Below the pieces are notes generated by a model that was not told the DNA's origin, made no database searches, and saw only the letters and a list, made by a program, of their open reading frames with translations. From NCBI RefSeq assembly GCF_900108035.1, contig NZ_FNVS01000004.1, positions 62,001 through 126,000 of the forward strand: 64,000 nt of DNA, in the 5' to 3' direction. Below are positions 1 to 10,516 of the stretch, piece by piece. Source of the DNA: Parabacteroides chinchillae (GTDB lineage: Bacteria > Bacteroidota > Bacteroidia > Bacteroidales > Tannerellaceae). Numbering within the stretch: the first letter of the stretch is position 1; the number at the start of each line of letters is the position of its first letter. The translations under genes were made by a program, and so were the position numbers.

Positions 1-2803
1 CCGTCTTCAAGAAGAATGAACCTTCATTATCACGATCTGATTCCAAAATGAAGCGGAAGTTATTAATACCCGGAAGTATCTTACCTTGAGTTGCATCTTT
101 AGAAGTACCTGCAACCAAAGATACTGTATCCCTATCAGTATTAGTTACGAACAATGAATCTACACCATAACGTTCTGCCGGACGGAACATCAAACGAGCG
201 GCACCACTATATTTGTAAACTGGATTTTCGCTATTAAGCGAATCTTTTGCAGCCCACATATACATGCGTTCACCAGAAAGAACTTTTGTTTCAGATTCTG
301 TTGCAATTGCTTTTGATACATAATATGAAGCAGTTTCACCGGCTTTATAGTTTACAGTATCAAAATAGAATGTAAAGTCGTCTTTAGTAAAGCTTTCAGC
401 CTTTAGACTATTACCTTCCTGAGCAACCACAGCAACATTATTCTTACCGATTGCCAGCATATCGTTGCCGCTCTTAAGTACCTGATGGCCTTCAGCCTTG
501 AAGTTTACAGCAGGAGCAGCCATTTCTTTAAATACAAACGGAGCAACTTTTGATGAAGAAGCCAATGCTATTGTATCCAATGCAGGAGCAGCAGCCTGGG
601 CATCCAATATAGCTACCTTATAGCCATAATCAGCATTAGTTGCCACATAATCAGCAGCTTTAGCAACACCGGCTTTTGTATCGTTCTTCATTGCTACGAA
701 ACCAGCAGTATCAACCAACTGATATTGATCCTTTGCGCAAGCCTTGATCAAGAATACAGCAGCACTGTCTGTAGCTTTATAATCGGCAGATGTTGCTTTC
801 ATTGTATACTGACCATTTTCTACACGTACCAGATATTTTCCATCTTTATCTTTCATCTTATATGACTGACGATACAACTGAGGAACATCATCTGTCTTAG
901 CAGCACCGTAGGCAGCAGCATTTACTTTTTCAAGATACATTGCGCTCTCATCATCGGCAAGGATTACTTTGCCTTCCTTATTACCCTGAAGATACATATT
1001 ACCAAGATATTCGTAAGCAGAAGTTACCTGGAACATGATGTTAGGCAATTTAGCTGCTTCATAGAACAAATAACCGCTATAATCTTTATCACCGCTGAAT
1101 GATACTTTTGCATCAGTCAACTGAATTGTTCCGGCAGAGATTGTAAATGTATCGTCCTTACCTTCTACGGCACCTACGAATCCAGAGTGAATTTTATTAC
1201 CTGTTGCACGGTTAATAATTTCATAAATACCTTCACCCAATTTCTTAACAACAAACTGAGCATTTACATCTGTTTCTTCAACAGCATCTGCAACAACTGC
1301 AGCAGCAGAACCAGTCAAAGCAGCAGCAGTAAACGGAGCTACAGCATACTTGTCTTTATTGTCGCCATCAAGATATTTCAGTGTATATACCTTCTTAACA
1401 TCGATGTTTGCACCTACCGTAGAAGGAACATCGCCCGCTTTATACGGCTGAATCAACGGATAGAAAGAAGTATTATTATTAGCCGTATCCATTACCAGAT
1501 AAACAGAAGAACCTAATACTCTCAAAGCAGGAGCCGGTACTGTAAAGTTACCTGCTACCATCTTTGTTGCACCTTCTTGCATTGTAAAGTCGGCAACCAG
1601 GCTATCAGAGAATGCATTTGTCTGAGAATCAAACTTAGGCAAGTTGTATGGACGGATAGCAATAGAATCATTTGCAACGCTGACCTTTACAACGAACACA
1701 GCAGAACCGATAGGACGGTTTACTTTTCCACCAACTATTTGTTCGCCAGCCAACGGATTAACGCCAAATGTAGGAACCGTATCGGCCAAAGCCAATGTCC
1801 AAGCCGGCATTCTTACTGCTTCATCAATTACCATGTTTGTGTCTGCCGGAGCAAAAGAGCCTTTCAGGTAAGTAGTATCAACCACCAATGCTTTCTTGTC
1901 TGTAGCAGACCACAATACCAACAAAGAGTCTGCATCATCTACAGAAGGCACCAATTTGCCAAGACCAGAACCGGCAACGCCCCAAGATTTCTGACCTACA
2001 GCAGGAATAGAGTCTGCATTTGCAGTACTTTTTACGTTAGCCTGATAAGCTGTCCAAGTTTTTTCTGTCAGGATGTTCTTACCTTGATTTACATCCTGAG
2101 GAGCATCTTTCACTTCAGACTGGTTGAAATACATTTTACCACCAAATTTTTTCATGAAAGCATTAAAGTCTTTTGCCGTCAATGTTAACGATTCTTGCGG
2201 GTGACGAACGACTAAAGAAGCTGTTACACCAGAAAGTGCAGATGCGGATGTTCCTTTTACCGAATTAAGCACCAATTGATCTGATTCATAAGTCAAATAA
2301 AATACGGAGTCATTCTTAAATGCATAGAAACATTTACCATCGTAAGCCCATTCGTCAATACCAGAAGCTACAAATTTCACACCTGCTAATTTACCGTTAT
2401 TTCCGTCCTTAGAGTTTGTAACAGATGGAACGATCAGCTTTACACCTTGTGTGTTTTTCAATGTGTAAGAACGAGCCGTTCCCGATACTTTTACATTTAC
2501 TGTCCATAATGTAGAATCAACACCGGCATAGCTAGTAGTGTCAATATCTGCTGTCAAATCAAAACTAGTAGCTCTGCTATTCAGCTTTTTAGAAGCTAAA
2601 GTCAAACCATCATTCGACTCTACAACGAAAGCATTTGTGTATTCTTTGCTGCAAGAAGTAGGATCAGCCAACTGCACACGTGTGCCATCCTTCAAATCAT
2701 TCAGACTTGAATAATACAAACTCTGCGCATTTGCTGATAGTCCACCGGCTACCAGAGCGGTAGCCAAAAGAGTAGAAAATCTTTTGTTCATACTTTTTTT
2801 CAT
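1..2803 (-). CDS. Large secreted surface-type protein (DUF6383-like), C-terminus beyond window edge
   Basis: An open frame runs without a stop from the ATG at 2803 to the left edge, giving 934 visible residues. It starts MKKSMNKRFSTLLATALVAG and has a clear type I signal peptide ending near NAQS; a second in-frame ATG at 2791 (MNKRFSTLL) is an equally good start. The rest is rich in Ala, Val, Lys, Asp and Thr with many short beta-strand-like segments, no membrane helix and no enzyme motif I recognise. The N-terminus and style resemble the very large DUF6383-type secreted proteins of Parabacteroides, a genus known for phase-variable S-layer-like surface glycoproteins. That assignment is from memory, because the diagnostic C-terminus lies outside the window. 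No minus-strand promoter matching TAnnTTTG was seen between 2804 and 2867, whereas an invertible-promoter arrangement lies just upstream at 2869-3084. Confidence 0.7.
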   Translation of the reverse strand, partial: MKKSMNKRFSTLLATALVAGGLSANAQSLYYSSLNDLKDGTRVQLADPTSCSKEYTNAFVVESNDGLTLASKKLNSRATSFDLTADIDTTSYAGVDSTLWTVNVKVSGTARSYTLKNTQGVKLIVPSVTNSKDGNNGKLAGVKFVASGIDEWAYDGKCFYAFKNDSVFYLTYESDQLVLNSVKGTSASALSGVTASLVVRHPQESLTLTAKDFNAFMKKFGGKMYFNQSEVKDAPQDVNQGKNILTEKTWTAYQANVKSTANADSIPAVGQKSWGVAGSGLGKLVPSVDDADSLLVLWSATDKKALVVDTTYLKGSFAPADTNMVIDEAVRMPAWTLALADTVPTFGVNPLAGEQIVGGKVNRPIGSAVFVVKVSVANDSIAIRPYNLPKFDSQTNAFSDSLVADFTMQEGATKMVAGNFTVPAPALRVLGSSVYLVMDTANNNTSFYPLIQPYKAGDVPSTVGANIDVKKVYTLKYLDGDNKDKYAVAPFTAAALTGSAAAVVADAVEETDVNAQFVVKKLGEGIYEIINRATGNKIHSGFVGAVEGKDDTFTISAGTIQLTDAKVSFSGDKDYSGYLFYEAAKLPNIMFQVTSAYEYLGNMYLQGNKEGKVILADDESAMYLEKVNAAAYGAAKTDDVPQLYRQSYKMKDKDGKYLVRVENGQYTMKATSADYKATDSAAVFLIKACAKDQYQLVDTAGFVAMKNDTKAGVAKAADYVATNADYGYKVAILDAQAAAPALDTIALASSSKVAPFVFKEMAAPAVNFKAEGHQVLKSGNDMLAIGKNNVAVVAQEGNSLKAESFTKDDFTFYFDTVNYKAGETASYYVSKAIATESETKVLSGERMYMWAAKDSLNSENPVYKYSGAARLMFRPAERYGVDSLFVTNTDRDTVSLVAGTSKDATQGKILPGINNFRFILESDRDNEGSFFLKT

Positions 2804-2867
2804 TTAATATTAATAATAGTGTTTATAAAAATCTATGATTCAACCATTTTAAATATCAATACCGTAC

Positions 2868-2909
2868 AAAAATGACTAGTGAAAACGATCGTTTTCACTA
2901 GTCATTTTT
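2868..2909. repeat. Left repeat of putative invertible promoter (perfect 42-bp palindrome)
   Basis: A perfect palindrome centred between 2888 and 2889. Its core is GAAAACGATCGTTTTC, with outer arms AATGACTAGT/ACTAGTCATT. A second copy, centred at 3064/3065, matches it at 33 of 36 positions in inverted orientation. The pair brackets a promoter, as at site-specific inversion junctions. Confidence 0.75.
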
Positions 2910-3014
2910 TTGCCTGATTTCGGAGGTTTGTTTAAGAAAGGGATTGTTTTGTAACAGATAAGTTATAGTGTTGATAAGAAAGAAGATACAGAAGAAAAAA
3001 AATTAAGAAAAGGG

Positions 3015-3044
3015 TTGCACGATAAAAAGAAAGATGTACCTTTG
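3015..3044 (+). promoter_or_regulatory. Bacteroidales promoter inside the putative invertible segment
   Basis: TTG at 3015-3017, a 19-nt spacer, then TACCTTTG at 3037-3044: a textbook -33/-7 pair for the Bacteroidetes primary sigma factor. It reads rightward, into about 270 bp without a gene and then a minus-strand pseudogene. Inverting the segment between the two repeats would place the -7 at about 2909-2916 on the minus strand, roughly 100 nt upstream of the large surface-protein gene. Confidence 0.7.
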
Positions 3045-3046
3045 CA

Positions 3047-3082
3047 ATGACGAATGAAAACGATCGTTTTCCCTAGTCATTC
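3047..3082. repeat. Right repeat of putative invertible promoter
   Basis: An imperfect palindrome with the same GAAAACGATCGTTTTC core (3055-3070) and flanks AATGAC and CTAGTCATT. It sits exactly at the predicted transcription start of the promoter at 3015-3044. Compared as a reverse complement with the 2868-2909 copy there are three mismatches in 36 positions. Confidence 0.75.
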
Positions 3083-3322
3083 CATCACCAAGTTTACTTC
3101 CTGTTTCTCAAACACTTATATCAAATACCAATATACAATATACATGTATTTTGCAAGTACCCCTTAAAATTATGTACGCGCGTACATAATATATATATAA
3201 ATGATAAAAGGAAGCGATTTATTGCATTTGTTTATACCCGAAACCGGTTGCCTACCCGGTTTGGTTTGGTTGCCTATTTGTTTTCGATAAAATGACTACC
3301 AAAATAACATTAAATATGCAGT
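3083..3322. other. Gene-free stretch with a palindrome
   Basis: No coding region is supported here. It contains a perfect 22-bp palindrome at 3169-3190 (core GTACGCGCGTAC) and, near 3240-3280, two copies of GGTTGCCTA beside CCGGTTT motifs. No gene for the rightward promoter at 3015-3044 could be found. Confidence 0.5.
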
Positions 3323-4538
3323 CTAATAATAGGTCATATAAAAGTTCACTTTGTCACCTTCTTCGGGGGGTGTTCCAAATCGTGTAATTTCTTCGCCTTT
3401 CAAAGTTTTCTCGTAGTGACCGTTTCTATCTGAGGTAGTTAGACCTTTACGAAGAGACTTTTTAAGCAAACGATCCACACTACTCTCGCTCACATTTAAG
3501 CTCTCCACGAACACTATCATTTGTGCTCTTGTGAAGCATTTCGGCATGTCTGCAAACAGGTTTAACTGTACATACGAAAAAGTATAAGTTACCTCTTTTT
3601 TGCGATGTTCGAGCGACGTTCCTACCATATAGGCATGACGAAGGCAGGTCATGATTATACCAAATGCCGTTTCAAAATCTTCGTCCGCTACCGTCATGTT
3701 GCAAACCATCCAACCGGCTTCCGCTTTGCGCAGCGCAGTTAGTATCATACAGATACGGAAAGGGATATACGGTAACGCAATACCACGCTATCACGGTCTT
3801 CATTACTAATTTTCTTTATATTCCCGCCAACGATCCAGAATATGCACCATAGATGCCACACGTCCTTTGCCGGAGGCCGATTCGCCTACTATAGAACAAA
3901 AAACGGGCGTGAAATAGATAGTACCATTCAGCCTGCCCAATACTCCCGGCATAGCAAAGCTCAGAAGGGTCAGGACCGACAGCAAATCGAGGTCTTTATC
4001 CTCCTTTCTACAATCGTTTGGCATCAACTCCAAAAGTGTTCTCGGGAGGTGGTTATAAACGTCATCTGGGAAGCTGCCAAGGAGTCCAACTCACAGCATC
4101 GCAAACAGACTGGAAGTAGAAAGCATGACTGTCCGGACTGTCGTTATCACAACTCACCACCAGATGCACTCCTTCTCCGCTCACGCTCACATGTGCAAAA
4201 AGGACGTAAGGCAATTGCCTGCAACGGTCGATCAGCACGGCAGGCTACTGCCTTGCATGGTCGATGCCTACAAAGCACAATCCGGTGTAAGCGGTAGCCT
4301 TGTCGGACTTTCACTCGCCATCAAAACGTGCACAGACGGTGATGGCCGGCAGGCTTCGCTTAAGGCGGCCGGCTTCATCCGTACGACCTTCCTTGCGGAA
4401 TCAGCGGATCTCGAAGGTGTTCCGGCGCAAAACTCCATTGGTTATCAACTCCTTTATCTGATCTAAGGTTACTAACTTTTCTGCTTGCTTGACATAAACA
4501 TTGCAGAAAAACGAAAAGGATTTCTCTCCCATTTCCAT
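3323..4538 (-). pseudogene. Decayed VirE-N / DUF3987 primase-helicase-like gene of a mobile element
   Basis: Reading leftward from an ATG at 4538, the first fragment begins MEMGEKSFSFFCNVYVKQ and stops after about 40 residues. The next frame gives GRLKRSLPAITVCARFDG, a stop, then YTGLCFVGIDH. A later frame reads HVSVSGEGVHLVV. These are the successive signatures of the VirE N-terminal (BT4734-like) domain. Downstream (4033-3806) a DUF3987-like P-loop domain follows, with Walker A GESASGKG, then a stop and a frameshift into its C-terminal part (3748-3323). At least four frame breaks or stops separate the pieces, so no functional protein can be made. Intact relatives are fused VirE-N/DUF3987 proteins carried on Bacteroidales integrated elements. 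No integrase, relaxase or att site is visible nearby, so this is an isolated scar. Confidence 0.85.
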
Positions 4539-4560
4539 TTTATTACTTATTTAATACAAA

Positions 4561-4590
4561 AAAGGAGACAATTTTCAGATTGTCTCCTTT
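4561..4590 (-). terminator. Terminator downstream of secDF
   Basis: A perfect 12-bp stem (AAAGGAGACAAT at 4561-4572 with its complement at 4579-4590) and a 6-nt loop, flanked by A- and T-rich tracts. It lies just beyond the secDF stop and could work in both directions. Confidence 0.75.
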
Positions 4591-4619
4591 CACTTTATCT
4601 ATTAGCCTTTTAAAAACTT

Positions 4620-7616
4620 TTACTTCCCTGCAGCTTCTTTTACTGCTTTCTTATTGATTTTCTTCTTCTGTAATTCATATGCGATAGGGGTTGCAACGAA
4701 CAGAGTAGAATATGTACCGACAACAATACCTAACAAGATAGCAAACGTAAAGCTACGAATTGTGCTACCACCCAGGATGAAGATACACAACACAACCACC
4801 AACGTTGTTAATGATGTATTGAATGTACGGGATAATGTAGAATTCAACGCATCGTTGATTACCTGATAACGGTCACGTTTCGGGTATAAACCGATTGTTT
4901 CACGGATACGGTCGAATACAACCACCGTATCATTGATAGAGTAACCGATAATGGTAAGGATAGCAGCAATAAACGTCTGGTCTACTTCCATTGAGAACGG
5001 TAACAGTTTCCATAACAATGTATAGAATGAAATAATACACAATGTTGTTACGGCTACAGAAGCGAATGCTCCAACAGAGAATGATATGTCACGGAAACGA
5101 AGCAGGATATAAACAGCCATACAGAACATAGCGAATACTACCGCCAGGATAGCGCTGTTCTTAATGTCGTCTGCCATACTTGGACCTACTTTCTGTGAGC
5201 TCTGAATATATGTAGAAGTAAACTGGTCCAAGGTTGTCCCTTCCGGTAGCAAAGGCTTAACACCTTCAAACAATTTGGATTCAATTTCCTGATCTACCGC
5301 AGGATTTGCATCCGCAATCTTATAGTTTGTAGAGATACGCACCTGATTGGGTGTACCGATTGTAATAACACTTACCGCACCATCCAACTGGGCATCCAAC
5401 ATATTGCGTACTTCATCGGTCTTAACATTCTGGTCGAAACGGACAACATAGTTGCGTCCCCCCGTAAAGTCGATACCGTTATTCAAACCGATTGTTGCCA
5501 TTGAGATACCACCCAATACGATGATGACAAGCGGAATCAGGTAACCCACCTTACGTGCAGCAAGGAAGTTGATCTTCGGATTTGTCAACAAGTCTTTCGT
5601 GATAGAAGTAACAAATGTTACGTTCTTCAATTTATCTTTAGCCAACAGAGCTTCATATACAATACGTGTTAAGAATACTGCCGTAAGGAATGATGCAAAC
5701 AGACCGATAATCATTGTGGTAGCAAAACCACGGATAGGACCGGTACCGAAGTAGAACAATACCACACCTGTGATGATTGATGTCAAGTTTGAGTCGAAGA
5801 TGGCAGAAAATGCATTGCTATAACCATCGGCAATAGCTTTGCTTAACGATTTACCTGCACGAAGTTCTTCTTTTGTACGCTCATAAATCAACACGTTAGC
5901 ATCTACTGCCATACCCAACGTAAGCACCATACCGGCAATACCCGGCAAAGTAAGGACAGCCTGGAATGAAGCAAGAATACCCATCGTAAAGAAGATATTC
6001 AATATCAAAGCACCGTCGGCAATCAGACCCGGAATAATTCCGTAGAATGCACACATATAAATCATCAATAAAACAAGTGCCAATGCAAATGAAATAACAC
6101 CTGAATTGATAGCTTCCTGACCAAGAGACGGACCAACAACATCTTCCTGTACGATCTGCACAGAAGCAGCCATCTTACCTGATTTCAACACATTAGCTAA
6201 GTCCTTTGCTTCTTCCGGAGTAAAATTACCTGTAATTTGTGAACGTCCACCGGTAATTTCCACTTGTACATTCGGAGCTGAATAAACCATATCGTCAAGA
6301 ACGATAGCAACGGCTTTGCCGATATTATCTTTTGTCAAACGCGCCCAAGCCTTTGCGCCTTCGGCATTCATAGTCATACTAACTAGCTGTTCGTTACGGC
6401 CTGCCTCCTGAGAGAAATCGGCATTAGCATCCGTTACAACATCGCCACCCAAAGCAGGAGAACCGTCACGGTTAGTCTGTTTGATAGCATACAAATAGAA
6501 ATATTGTTCTTTTTCATCAATAGCCTTAACACCCCACTTCAAAGACAGGTTACGAGGTAACACATCTTTTACTTGTTTCATGTTCAGGTATTCGTTGATT
6601 TTGTCAATGTCTTTTACGTTAGCTATACCAACAATAGCGCTCGGAACAAGCTGTCCGTTATACTGGTTAACCTGCAAAAGGGCAAACAGCGGATGTTGTT
6701 TTGCGAACTCTTCCATATTGGCACTAGCTGCAGCGTCCGGTTTTTCCTGGTGAATCTGAGCCAAAAGAGAATCGGCATCACTTGTTGCAGCGTCTTCGGT
6801 TGCAACGGTAGCCGTTTCGGCAACTACTGCAGTAGAATCGGATGTTTCGCTACTTAATACGGTAGCCAATATATTATCGGCAGCAATTAACTGCTGGTAG
6901 ATTTCAGGCAACTGGTAAGTTTCCCAAAATTCCAAGTTTGCACTACCCTGAAGCAACTTACGTACACGTTCCGGTTCTTTAACACCCGGAAGTTCAACAA
7001 GGATACGTCCTGCCGTTTCAAGGCGCTGGATGTTTGGAGAAACCACACCGAATCGGTCTATACGGGTACGTAATACATTAAATGAGTTATCGATAGCACT
7101 CTGCAATTCATTTTTCAAAACAGCGATTACCTGAGCATCAGAACTCTGGGGTGTGATTTTATCTTTTAACTCGAAAGTACTGAAAATAGCAGACAGACGT
7201 GCACCGTTGTCCAACTTTTTATACTCTTCTGCGAATAAATCAATGAAGTCTTTCTGGCTGGTAGCCTGGTGAGCATATGCCAGATCCAACGCCTTATTGA
7301 AGTTTTCGTCCTGATTATTGTTTGAAAGCGACCGGATAACATCGGCAACATTCAACTCGAGAACGACGTTCATACCTCCCTTAAGGTCAAGACCTAAACT
7401 GATTTCCATTTCACGGCATTGCTTCAATGTATAGCCCAGCCATACCTTCTGAGTAGATAAAGAGTCCAGATAAGCAGTCTCTTTCGCAGGATCTCCACCT
7501 GCATACTCAGCGGCTTTATTGTTGTAATATCTTGTCACAAACGAGAATGACAAATAGAACAAGCAAACAAGCGTAAGTAACACCGCGAAGACCTTCACAA
7601 ATCCTTTGTTTTGCAT
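4620..7616 (-). CDS. secDF: Protein translocase SecDF fusion
   Basis: A 998-residue fusion of SecD and SecF, the usual arrangement in Bacteroidetes. These inner-membrane proteins use the proton motive force to help SecYEG complete protein export. The N-terminal half has one signal-anchor helix, a large periplasmic domain (the SecD pore-like motif LGLDLKGGMNVVLEL is near residues 75-90, and ELPGVKEPERVRKLLQGSAN follows later) and a helix cluster. The SecF half begins near residue 650 and includes IGLNNGIDFTGGRNYV, then VGPSMADDIKNSAI and further helices. An insert of low-complexity Ala/Thr/Asp residues near 245-290 sits within the SecD periplasmic region and looks lineage-specific. Monocistronic: the stem-loop at 4561-4590 follows it and a -7 element precedes it at 7671-7678. 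Confidence 0.97.
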   Translation of the reverse strand: MQNKGFVKVFAVLLTLVCLFYLSFSFVTRYYNNKAAEYAGGDPAKETAYLDSLSTQKVWLGYTLKQCREMEISLGLDLKGGMNVVLELNVADVIRSLSNNNQDENFNKALDLAYAHQATSQKDFIDLFAEEYKKLDNGARLSAIFSTFELKDKITPQSSDAQVIAVLKNELQSAIDNSFNVLRTRIDRFGVVSPNIQRLETAGRILVELPGVKEPERVRKLLQGSANLEFWETYQLPEIYQQLIAADNILATVLSSETSDSTAVVAETATVATEDAATSDADSLLAQIHQEKPDAAASANMEEFAKQHPLFALLQVNQYNGQLVPSAIVGIANVKDIDKINEYLNMKQVKDVLPRNLSLKWGVKAIDEKEQYFYLYAIKQTNRDGSPALGGDVVTDANADFSQEAGRNEQLVSMTMNAEGAKAWARLTKDNIGKAVAIVLDDMVYSAPNVQVEITGGRSQITGNFTPEEAKDLANVLKSGKMAASVQIVQEDVVGPSLGQEAINSGVISFALALVLLMIYMCAFYGIIPGLIADGALILNIFFTMGILASFQAVLTLPGIAGMVLTLGMAVDANVLIYERTKEELRAGKSLSKAIADGYSNAFSAIFDSNLTSIITGVVLFYFGTGPIRGFATTMIIGLFASFLTAVFLTRIVYEALLAKDKLKNVTFVTSITKDLLTNPKINFLAARKVGYLIPLVIIVLGGISMATIGLNNGIDFTGGRNYVVRFDQNVKTDEVRNMLDAQLDGAVSVITIGTPNQVRISTNYKIADANPAVDQEIESKLFEGVKPLLPEGTTLDQFTSTYIQSSQKVGPSMADDIKNSAILAVVFAMFCMAVYILLRFRDISFSVGAFASVAVTTLCIISFYTLLWKLLPFSMEVDQTFIAAILTIIGYSINDTVVVFDRIRETIGLYPKRDRYQVINDALNSTLSRTFNTSLTTLVVVLCIFILGGSTIRSFTFAILLGIVVGTYSTLFVATPIAYELQKKKINKKAVKEAAGK

Positions 7617-7670
7617 TTGAATCTTATGTTTATGTTATTACATTATTTATTTTTGTTTTTTCACAGGGTG

Positions 7671-7678
7671 CAAATATA
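7671..7678 (-). promoter_or_regulatory. Probable -7 element of secDF
   Basis: The minus strand reads TATATTTG, an exact TAnnTTTG match, about 55 nt upstream of the secDF start. No convincing -33 box at the usual spacing. Confidence 0.5.
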
Positions 7679-7753
7679 GACTTTTTTTCTTTGATAAAGA
7701 CCAATTAGATTAATTATTTGTCACTCTCATAGTTTATTTCGAACGCAAATGTA

Positions 7754-7761
7754 TATCTTTG
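7754..7761 (+). promoter_or_regulatory. Probable -7 element of the DUF4468 pair
   Basis: TATCTTTG, an exact TAnnTTTG match, 29 nt upstream of the ATG at 7790; divergent from the secDF -7 element. Confidence 0.5.
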
Positions 7762-7789
7762 TCTGTAAAATATAAAGAAAATTAGAACC

Positions 7790-8827
7790 ATGAAACGACT
7801 ATTATTGTTATTATTATTTATTCCGGCTTTATTATCAGCCCAGAAAGATCAACAATATCTGGCTGGTGCTGTTCCCGAAATAGACGGCAAAGTAGTATTC
7901 ACGAAAGAGTTTAACGCGCCTTCTCTGTCGCAAGACCAAATATATGACACTTTGTTAAAATGGGCACAAGAATATTTTAACAATGAAAAAGAACGGGTTG
8001 TTTATACCAATAAAGGAAAGGGAGAAATAGCTGCAATAGGCAATAATTACATTATTTTCACAAGTACAGCCATTTCGCTAGACCGTGCACTTATGTCTTT
8101 CCAAATGACTATCGAATGCAAAGGACATAATTGTATCATGAAAATAACTGCCATCCGATATACCTACGACGTTTCTTATCAACGGGAACCTGAGAAATAT
8201 ACTGCAGAAGAAATAATTACGGACAAAAATGCAATCAACAAGAAAGGTACGTTAGTACGGGGATTTGCCAAATTCCGCAAATCAACAATAGACTATGTAA
8301 ACAAAACAATGGACAGTGCATTGGCTGCACTCAATCTTCAGACAAACCCGCAACAGATAGCATCTGCAGTTACAACACCAGTAGCACCAACTGCGCCTAC
8401 CGCCTCCGTAGTTCCTGCAACCCCTCTTAGTCCGGCTATGACTGCAGAGCCAGCAACTGCCAGCAAACCTATGAAAGGCTTTATCTCCGTAAAACCGGAT
8501 CAAATACCAAGCACCATACTTCAGCTACTCCCAGACAGCAAAATAACTATCGTGCCGGAGAGTGCAACCGAATTGACCGAAACGAATGCCGCATGGAAAG
8601 GAATCAGCACGATATTTGGCAGAAAGGTGGCATCTTTCTCCATTGACCCTAACAGCCATGTTTATAAAGCAATCGGCAACGAAGGGATCTACAAGATATC
8701 TTTCCTTAACAAAGATGATGCCAGCGACAACGCATGGATGATAATAGAATGTAAAAAACAAGGAGAAACTCCGGATGGACAACAAGTTTCCATTTTAGGC
8801 GAAATTACAAATGTATGGATCAAATAA
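7790..8827 (+). CDS. Secreted DUF4468 domain protein
   Basis: 345 residues with a signal peptide (MKRLLLLLLFIPALLSAQ). Residues about 30-125 match the DUF4468 pattern, predicted to have a TBP-like fold: a strand-rich start (DGKVVFTKEFNAP), the helix IYDTLLKWAQEYFN, the turn NKGKGEIAAIG and the strands FQMTIECKGHNCIMKITAIR. A Pro/Ala/Thr linker at about 187-222 leads to a second domain of about 110 residues that I do not recognise. Likely periplasmic or outer-membrane associated; no function is known for the family. It is co-directional with the 182-residue paralogue 10 bp downstream, so the two are probably one transcript. Confidence 0.85.
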   Translation: MKRLLLLLLFIPALLSAQKDQQYLAGAVPEIDGKVVFTKEFNAPSLSQDQIYDTLLKWAQEYFNNEKERVVYTNKGKGEIAAIGNNYIIFTSTAISLDRALMSFQMTIECKGHNCIMKITAIRYTYDVSYQREPEKYTAEEIITDKNAINKKGTLVRGFAKFRKSTIDYVNKTMDSALAALNLQTNPQQIASAVTTPVAPTAPTASVVPATPLSPAMTAEPATASKPMKGFISVKPDQIPSTILQLLPDSKITIVPESATELTETNAAWKGISTIFGRKVASFSIDPNSHVYKAIGNEGIYKISFLNKDDASDNAWMIIECKKQGETPDGQQVSILGEITNVWIK

Positions 8828-8837
8828 ACAATAAAAG

Positions 8838-9386
8838 ATGAGAAAAGTATTATTATTTATATGTATGTTATTCCCTGTGTTATGTATGGCACAGGGACAT
8901 AAAGGTTCTGTAAGCGATTGCGCACCCATGAAAGATGGAAAAGTTGTCTACAGCGACAAAGTAGACATGCAAGGAATGAGCAAAGACGATTTGTTCAATG
9001 CCATAAACAAATGGGCCAAAAAGAGCTATGGAAAAGATGTGTTTTTATCCAACGTATCTTCCAATAAAGGCAAAGGCTCTATATCCGTAAGTTCTAAAGT
9101 AGAACTACTTCTGAACGATAACGATAAAACGGTACTGAAATACAGAATGCACATTAATTGCGAAGAAGAACAATACAAAATAGTGATATCTAACATCGTA
9201 TATCAATATGATCCCAAGAACGAGAAAAAATACAAGACGTATGTAGCAGAAGATGTAATTGCAAACAATGGCAAAAGCAATAAAATTGCAATTATAAAAG
9301 ATCCGTCATTATTCTGCAATGCGACATTCTTCTTTGTAGAGAACTTGTTCGGGGAAGTCTTTGATGCAGCAAAAGATGACGAATAA
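8838..9386 (+). CDS. Secreted DUF4468 domain protein, single-domain paralogue
   Basis: 182 residues with signal peptide MRKVLLFICMLFPVLCMAQG. The body repeats the features of the upstream gene (DGKVVYSDKVDMQGMSKDDL, helix FNAINKWAKKSYG, NKGKGSISV, MHINCEEEQYKIVISNIVYQ), so it is a tandem paralogue without the linker and second domain. Predicted periplasmic, function unknown. It is convergent with the next gene, leaving only 17 bp and no obvious terminator between them. Confidence 0.85.
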   Translation: MRKVLLFICMLFPVLCMAQGHKGSVSDCAPMKDGKVVYSDKVDMQGMSKDDLFNAINKWAKKSYGKDVFLSNVSSNKGKGSISVSSKVELLLNDNDKTVLKYRMHINCEEEQYKIVISNIVYQYDPKNEKKYKTYVAEDVIANNGKSNKIAIIKDPSLFCNATFFFVENLFGEVFDAAKDDE

Positions 9387-9403
9387 ATAATACGGTGTGG
9401 CTG

Positions 9404-10516
9404 TTATTTGTCAAGTTGCAGATAACACCACATCGGATAATGATCTGAATATTTCACTTTGTCAACCGTACAATTCATTGCCTTCATATTAGATGAATGA
9501 AGGATATTATCGATACGGAACCAGAAGAAATTTTGATTATAAGAAACACCTATACCTCTTCCCGATTCAGAAAAAGCATCTACCAAAGGCCCTTGAACAG
9601 TACGGTGAGCGTATGAAATAGGCGTATCATTAAAGTCTCCACACACAACAATGTAACCATTCTTAGCCTTTTCTACTTCACTTGCCACTGTTTTAGCCTG
9701 CTTAGCCCGAATAATAAATGCAGGGCCTAACTTTTGCTGAATAGCACCACGCAATTCGTCAAAAGTATCAGAGCCTATATTTTTAATAAAAGCAGAATAA
9801 CGGGAACGATCTTCAGAGGTAAGCTTAAATGATTCCAGGTGATTATTTATCAATGTGATATTTTTATCTTTAACCTTGACCTGATGCACAGAGGAGCCGT
9901 TGAAATTACTATCATATTTAATCCGCCGTGATTCCGAAATGGGGTATTTGGAAAAAACAGCAATACCGAACGTCATAAGCTTATTGCTACTCAAAGTAAA
10001 AACAGAACGGTACGGGTACATTTTTAATGCGCTGAAAATCTTATTACGAGTGAGATATTTCTCCGATTTATGCTCGGCATATTCCTGCAAACAGACAATA
10101 TCGGCATCCGAATTGGCTATGTACTCGATTATCTGATTAGGGCTATATTTGGTATGGTTTTTATACCCAAACCCCATTACATTATAAGTCAACACCTTTA
10201 ACACATTTTCCTGCGGAACAGGTTTCACCGGAGAGTGAAAAGGGAAATAATTTTTGACAGGAGTCCAACAAATAAGGAAAGATACCACACCTATCAATAA
10301 GAATTTCCATTCCCATAAGAATAACCAATATAATATAAAACAGATATTCAATGCACAGAGTACAGGAAATGCCAATCCCAAATAAGAAAACAATAAACTC
10401 TTCTCCGGAGAAAATCTATCCGAATAAGCCGCTAATATAAATAAAACAACCACTATGATATTAGCGATCACAAACAAAAATTGCAAAAACAATCGTAGCG
10501 TTTTCATCCGGTTCAT
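9404..10516 (-). CDS. Membrane-anchored endonuclease/exonuclease/phosphatase family protein
   Basis: 370 residues. Two or three N-terminal membrane helices (about 8-95) are followed by an endonuclease/exonuclease/phosphatase fold. Recognisable metal and catalytic motifs are LKVLTYNVMGFG, DADIVCLQEYAE (metal-binding Glu), LINNHLES, VCGDFNDTPISYAHR and KYSDHYPMWCYL (the terminal Asp-His). The family includes Mg-dependent nucleases and phosphodiesterases, and the substrate cannot be told from sequence. Its start overlaps the rhomboid stop by one base (TAATG), so the two are translationally coupled. Internal ATG at 10507 is an alternative start. Confidence 0.9.
   Translation of the reverse strand: MNRMKTLRLFLQFLFVIANIIVVVLFILAAYSDRFSPEKSLLFSYLGLAFPVLCALNICFILYWLFLWEWKFLLIGVVSFLICWTPVKNYFPFHSPVKPVPQENVLKVLTYNVMGFGYKNHTKYSPNQIIEYIANSDADIVCLQEYAEHKSEKYLTRNKIFSALKMYPYRSVFTLSSNKLMTFGIAVFSKYPISESRRIKYDSNFNGSSVHQVKVKDKNITLINNHLESFKLTSEDRSRYSAFIKNIGSDTFDELRGAIQQKLGPAFIIRAKQAKTVASEVEKAKNGYIVVCGDFNDTPISYAHRTVQGPLVDAFSESGRGIGVSYNQNFFWFRIDNILHSSNMKAMNCTVDKVKYSDHYPMWCYLQLDK

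Follow-up and report, generated by a model that had tools for sequence, protein, structure and literature searches.

The window analyzed here, 64,000 nucleotides of Parabacteroides chinchillae, corresponds to C20:62001–126000 of a 3.57-Mb assembly of 38 contigs (G000, hereafter the own genome). Close to its left end begins a gene for a large secreted protein, the target gene (table 1), whose product has the N-terminus MKKSMNKRFSTLLA and, at full length, a C-terminal DUF6383 domain (PF19910; 87.3 bits). The same domain ends all six family proteins of the own genome that were scanned; NCBIfam gave no model for these surface proteins, and none of the six was named. The conserved family start, MNKRF, lies four codons into the ORF (2791), and the target protein is probably located on the cell surface. 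Upstream of the gene, the remains of a broken gene are seen at 3326–4090 on the reverse strand, one piece of which is weakly DUF3987-like (20.2 bits, below the 27-bit cut-off). No Rfam family matched in positions 1–9500 of the window.

Two 36-bp inverted repeats separate the target gene from these remains. They are complementary at 33 of 36 positions (92%), as the original prediction had counted, with 139 nt in between; this was the top score for 36-mers in positions 2401–3600, far above the values (24 at most) obtained in 40 dinucleotide-preserving shuffles. The centre of the first repeat stands at 2888/2889 as proposed, that of the second had to be moved from 3064/3065 to 3063.5, and the spacing is 175 bp instead of 176. 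The palindromic nature of each repeat had been regarded as uncommon; however, sites of serine recombinases are bound by a dimer and are hence palindromic, so that palindromes are to be expected. Between the repeats we again found the Bacteroidetes promoter on the forward strand, directed away from the surface-protein gene (TTG at 3015–3017, a 19-nt spacer and TACCTTTG at 3037–3044). The stretch that it faces is nearly as free of genes as had been thought, its nearest feature being the broken DUF3987-like gene on the opposite strand. The −7 box agrees with the consensus TAnnTTTG given in the accessible text of PMC4747536. After inversion about the site centres, this box would fall at 2908–2915, and not at about 2909–2916 as first calculated. 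Assuming that transcription starts ~5 nt past it, and with the family start at 2791, the ON-state leader would measure ~100–112 nt.

Table 1. Features of the locus and of related loci (positions without prefix are those of the window)
Feature	Position	Strand	Remarks
Target gene, large secreted protein	2..2803	−	cut by window edge; 1040 aa in contig
Left repeat arm	2871–2906		36 bp
Right repeat arm	3046–3081		36 bp
Gene-proximal recombination site (predicted)	2868–2909	none	perfect 42-bp palindrome, contains left repeat; core ACGATCGT 2885–2892; crossover bases AT 2888–2889
Gene-distal recombination site (predicted)	3046–3081	none	imperfect palindrome, 82%; core ACGATCGT 3060–3067; crossover bases AT 3063–3064
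Putative invertible segment	2889–3063		175 bp, separating site centres 2888.5 and 3063.5
Promoter TTG-N19-TACCTTTG	3015–3044	+	points away from gene (OFF)
Distal palindrome ATGTACGCGCGTACAT	3172–3187	none	alternating purines/pyrimidines
Other palindrome copies	C20:61426, C21:157000, C30:49826, C30:114534, C30:191937		2–6 spacer bases
Own-genome segment copies	C20:64860, C20:61133, C21:156720, C30:114623, C30:50031		the first is the window's
Sixth family gene	L072:6225–9002		contig C30; consensus promoter at L072:6091 directed toward gene
Mpi gene	L074:6324–6932		contig C16
Serine-less Mpi paralogue	L075:242–844	−	contig C5
Serine-less Mpi paralogue	L076:5490–6089	−	contig C19
Collinear pair	L092 (G011) / L117 (G014)		OFF / ON; segment 86% alike
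Collinear pair	L087 / L088 (both G017)		OFF / ON; segment 96–98% alike
Collinear pair	L013 (own genome) / L082 (G002)		OFF / ON; segment 70–76% alike

In the own genome, DNA similarity searches identified at least five full-length segment copies (matches at C25, within coding sequence, and at C11 look like chance). The distance from each of these five switches to the start of its family gene is 80–95 nt, and every promoter is OFF. The anatomy of the window locus and these family copies fit the original prediction that the gene for a large secreted protein is preceded by an invertible promoter in the OFF state, and its suggestion to look for further core copies before such genes was borne out by the five switches. 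In the P. distasonis S-layer family, large secreted proteins occur as several paralogues with an invertible promoter before each, a trait that recurs here with five putative members. The sixth family gene differs in its upstream region, where the best site score was 13, that is, background, versus 28 and 30 for the two window sites; we call its promoter fixed ON and devoid of inversion sites. In G002, a family gene (L083, starting at 5625 on the reverse strand) is arranged similarly: its promoter faces the coding sequence, and no site rises above background. Three family loci also have short ATCATCCCGAT-type repeats, running in either direction, nearby (L012 ~7075–7145, L013 ~7400–7450, and L072 ~5860–5930).

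Our survey covered 38 Parabacteroides genomes, one per species and including the own genome, and the segment was matched at E ≤ 0.01 in 30 of them, own included. The switches examined were a subset of the matches listed, mainly top-ranked and long ones; among these, 61 switch pairs adjoining a family gene were found in 14 genomes, 56 of them OFF and 5 ON, after exclusion of a pair with a promoter next to which no family gene was found (L190). All seven family switches examined in G003 are OFF. Of the five ON copies, two stand in tandem in G002 (L080) and are nearly identical, one having a gene of 63 aa, and a third ON gene (L082) encodes 478 aa only. Because palindromic sites let either orientation match the probe, the similarity search should not favor OFF copies. 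Such a predominance of the OFF state could mean that flipping is infrequent or that part of the copies are relics. Within G002, L077 and L080 carry near-identical tandem copies of a whole switch together with its gene start, which suggests duplication of such loci. Similar paired sites, 142–177 bp apart, also occur beside other genes in G008, G012, G013, and G037 (L174–L179). Seven seemingly lone sites in relatives were considered as deletion scars and rejected as such, since all have a partner site 142–177 bp away, including L180, whose core is altered.

Evidence for inversion came from three pairs of loci with collinear flanks, in which the segment lies on opposite strands and the breaks fall at the sites (table 1); within G002, L077, L078, and L081 show the same inverted-segment pattern when compared with L082. 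The family therefore inverts. This bears on an alternative in which the promoter has a fixed direction and the repeats insulate the gene as hairpin terminators or operators. In its favor, the left palindrome shows no mismatch and has T-runs next to it on both strands, and the predicted hairpin of the window is much stronger in the OFF than in the ON state (−20.4 vs −11.0 kcal/mol). However, related loci carry the segment both ways with breaks at the sites, and the crossover bases match in 58/58 pairs, which makes a fixed direction barely credible. Terminator activity of the OFF-state site was also considered as an additional role and discarded as a family rule: the hairpin is strong in the window and in four of five own copies, and over 45 distinct arm sets the OFF form was stronger in 15, equal in 18, and weaker than the ON form in 12.

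For the window locus itself, the assembly contains a single orientation of the segment. A stretch of its distal flank is shared with L081 of G002 (83% over 929 bp), which is likely its counterpart, and both are OFF. Since only the OFF form is observed in these two loci, the switch might be a relic, formerly invertible and now locked OFF in its own lineage. We consider this quite unlikely: both sites retain intact cores of identical sequence, their arms agree at 33/36 positions, the promoter is consensus, the gene is open, and Mpi is intact. An inverting switch, the window copy of which probably still flips, thus remains our preferred reading.

The sites share a core frame, ACG-NN-CGT. In all 58 distinct pairs (the 61 minus duplicates and one pair with an N), its central dinucleotide is identical in both sites in inverted register, although it is of four kinds (AT in 24 pairs, TT in 16, TA in 16, and AA in 2), three of which (AT, AA, and TT) are present already within the own genome. 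At most 33 matched centres were obtained in 10,000 re-pairings, against 58 observed; the pairs are related, so that independent changes number fewer than 58. The remaining core positions are mismatched in 3 to 8 of the 58 pairs, and one flanking position is also invariant, but there the same base is present in all 116 sites, whereas the centre varies. The first 48 pairs were picked partly on mutual likeness (at least 21/32 bases), which introduces a small bias; among later pairs, picked by likeness to the consensus, the centre matched in 14/14 with a promoter versus 2/6 chance pairs without one. Serine recombinases are marked by a two-base overlap at the crossover, so that a matched 2-bp centre of four kinds argues for a serine invertase exchanging strands across 2 bp. 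Tyrosine recombinases exchange ~6–8 matched bases, a requirement at odds with the bases on either side of the central two, which are mismatched in 5 and 8 of the 58 pairs. Judged by its sites, operation of the same switch by a tyrosine recombinase (Tsr type), the gene of which is often linked to the inverton, is accordingly very improbable, even though this type is reported for several capsule and S-layer loci of Bacteroidales. Invertons of this order, with a tyrosine-type recombinase gene at P. distasonis capsule loci, are described in the accessible parts of PMC12118408 and PMC8400631. Moreover, the repeats that the available text of PMC12118408 prints for capsule loci of P. distasonis and B. 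xylanisolvens are different from the sites found here.

Four Resolvase-domain proteins are encoded in the own genome. One of them is an intact Mpi, the master DNA invertase (NCBIfam NF009949; 325.5 bits vs a cut-off of 272), and its location on another contig fits the earlier proposal of a recombinase acting in trans. Mpi probably performs these inversions. The Mpi site consensus of B. fragilis is reportedly ARACGTWCGT, although this consensus was not found in print in the literature searched. The window core AAACGATCGT fits its ACG-NN-CGT frame but not its centre, which is AT here, and paralogous sites with a TT or TA centre fit it. The serine invertases Hin and Gin likewise use a palindromic dimer site and a 2-bp crossover; their crossover bases are asymmetric, whereas symmetric centres (AT or TA) are found here in 40/58 distinct pairs. 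Because such centres are symmetric, the bases alone cannot separate inversion from deletion. The seven seemingly lone sites of relatives nonetheless all proved to be paired, and another factor must impose inversion, or selection must remove deletions.

Taken together, we give a probability of roughly 0.9 to the reading that an Mpi-type invertible promoter makes expression of the large secreted surface protein phase-variable. One dimer of the serine invertase Mpi, supplied from another contig, would bind each palindromic site; the enzyme would pair both sites, cut them at the central dinucleotide, and rejoin the ends after rotation. The 175-bp promoter segment would thereby be flipped, and the promoter, with its −7 box in the new position, would read into the gene through the ~100-nt leader. 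In the sequenced form the promoter is directed away, which would leave the gene OFF, an orientation that presumably means a silent gene.

The own genome also encodes two Mpi paralogues without the catalytic serine, one from each of two clades conserved in the genus, A and B (contigs C5 and C19). The serine is missing in all 27 proteins of these clades: its position is occupied by a tyrosine in 13/13 proteins of clade A and by glycine, alanine, or threonine in 14/14 of clade B, where the residue letter is alignment-dependent. Of 17 Mpi sequences, 15 align at this position, and all 15 have the serine (two Mpi-group loci without an ORF passing the filter and one partial A gene were left out). In a tree of 42 rows, each clade was monophyletic with 99–100% support. 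Clades A and B seem to be kept by selection, because dN/dS within them was 0.02–0.18 in 8/9 pairs tried, the ninth being saturated. Genomes with paralogue A (n = 14, one of which, G021, has a partial A gene only) show a median of 15.5 segment matches, versus 1 in those without it (n = 24; p ~7e-6), a correlation of little weight since relatedness, genome size, and a probe taken from the own genome may contribute to it. No report of such paralogues was returned by literature searches combining inactive serine recombinases with DNA inversion, or Mpi with Parabacteroides, which covered titles and the openings of abstracts, most subscription papers lying outside.

A second recurrent element is the distal palindrome (table 1). 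The own genome contains six occurrences of the pattern ATGTAC-N(0-10)-GTACAT, one next to every one of the six family genes and none elsewhere, versus four of the backward control pattern. Because it is present before the fixed-ON gene too, the role of the palindrome cannot be limited to inversion. Among the 61 switches, its exact form (spacer 2, 4, or 6) was found 32 times on the distal side and never on the gene side; with up to two mismatches, the numbers were 39 and 4. Purines and pyrimidines alternate in 36 of those 39 spacers, whereas 16 are palindromic, so that alternation is better kept than symmetry, a feature that would resemble Z-forming DNA. Exact copies are unevenly distributed among genomes (7/7 in G003, 3/3 in G017, and 0/4 in G001). 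The idea that the palindrome is a binding site of the serine-less paralogues was abandoned, as it is unsupported by genome-by-genome co-occurrence: G017 and G020 (3/3 and 1/4 exact) show one Mpi-like match each, whereas G008, G012, and G037 have both paralogues, yet only 3/13 of their copies together are exact. None of the papers found on Z-DNA, phase variation, and Bacteroides reports this palindrome, as far as titles and abstract openings go, with most subscription papers outside the search.

A joint and rather speculative reading, which we hold to be doubtful, is that the serine-less Mpi paralogues and the alternating palindrome control the switch family beyond Mpi. If so, clades A and B would be non-cutting regulators or accessory subunits setting the frequency and direction of flipping, and the palindrome, located upstream of family genes, would exert control through sensitivity to supercoiling or through a bound protein. 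This would explain why sites with symmetric centres invert instead of deleting, as well as the OFF state of nearly all copies.

The Mpi-type switch proposed here forms part of a surface-switching system that spans a gut-bacterial genus and can be pictured at the sequence level. Many surface genes are kept OFF, probably on one invertase, next to a fixed-ON member here and a similar one in G002, and the matched two-base centre pinpoints the crossover. Removal of the distal palindrome or of the serine-less Mpi paralogues would offer a concrete way to probe silencing and the avoided deletion of promoters.

Among known systems, a phase-variable S-layer glycoprotein family of Parabacteroides distasonis (Fletcher et al. 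2007, PNAS 104:2413) and Mpi-controlled promoter inversions in Bacteroides fragilis (Coyne et al. 2003) have reportedly been described. The switches found here resemble the latter in relying, as proposed, on one small serine invertase that serves many promoters in trans and in the ACG-NN-CGT core of the Mpi consensus, and differ from them in their DUF6383 surface-protein targets and in the presence of AT and AA centres besides TT and TA. In B. fragilis, Mpi inverts 13 regions, according to the available text of PMC4747536. The capsule switches of Bacteroides intestinalis, as far as they are described in the accessible part of PMC12118408, have segments of 183–186 bp and a repeat, GTTCGTTTAA, that closely resembles half of the TT-type core found here, but they drive capsule operons, in contrast to the single surface-protein genes of the present family. 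The BT1927 S-layer switch of B. thetaiotaomicron is similar in that it governs a surface-layer protein (~100 kDa) from a promoter that is OFF in most cells, and differs in its repeat sequence and in its location near a site-specific integrase (PMC12578637 and PMC12118408, in the parts available). For P. distasonis, the accessible text of PMC8400631 describes a promoter-inversion mechanism for an S-layer glycoprotein, in line with the statement of the original prediction that surface glycoproteins of this species are switched by invertible promoters; by this description, the two families share the genus, large secreted surface proteins, and promoter inversion. The locus described here adds a new member to the Mpi-type, phase-variable switches of surface proteins that are already known.
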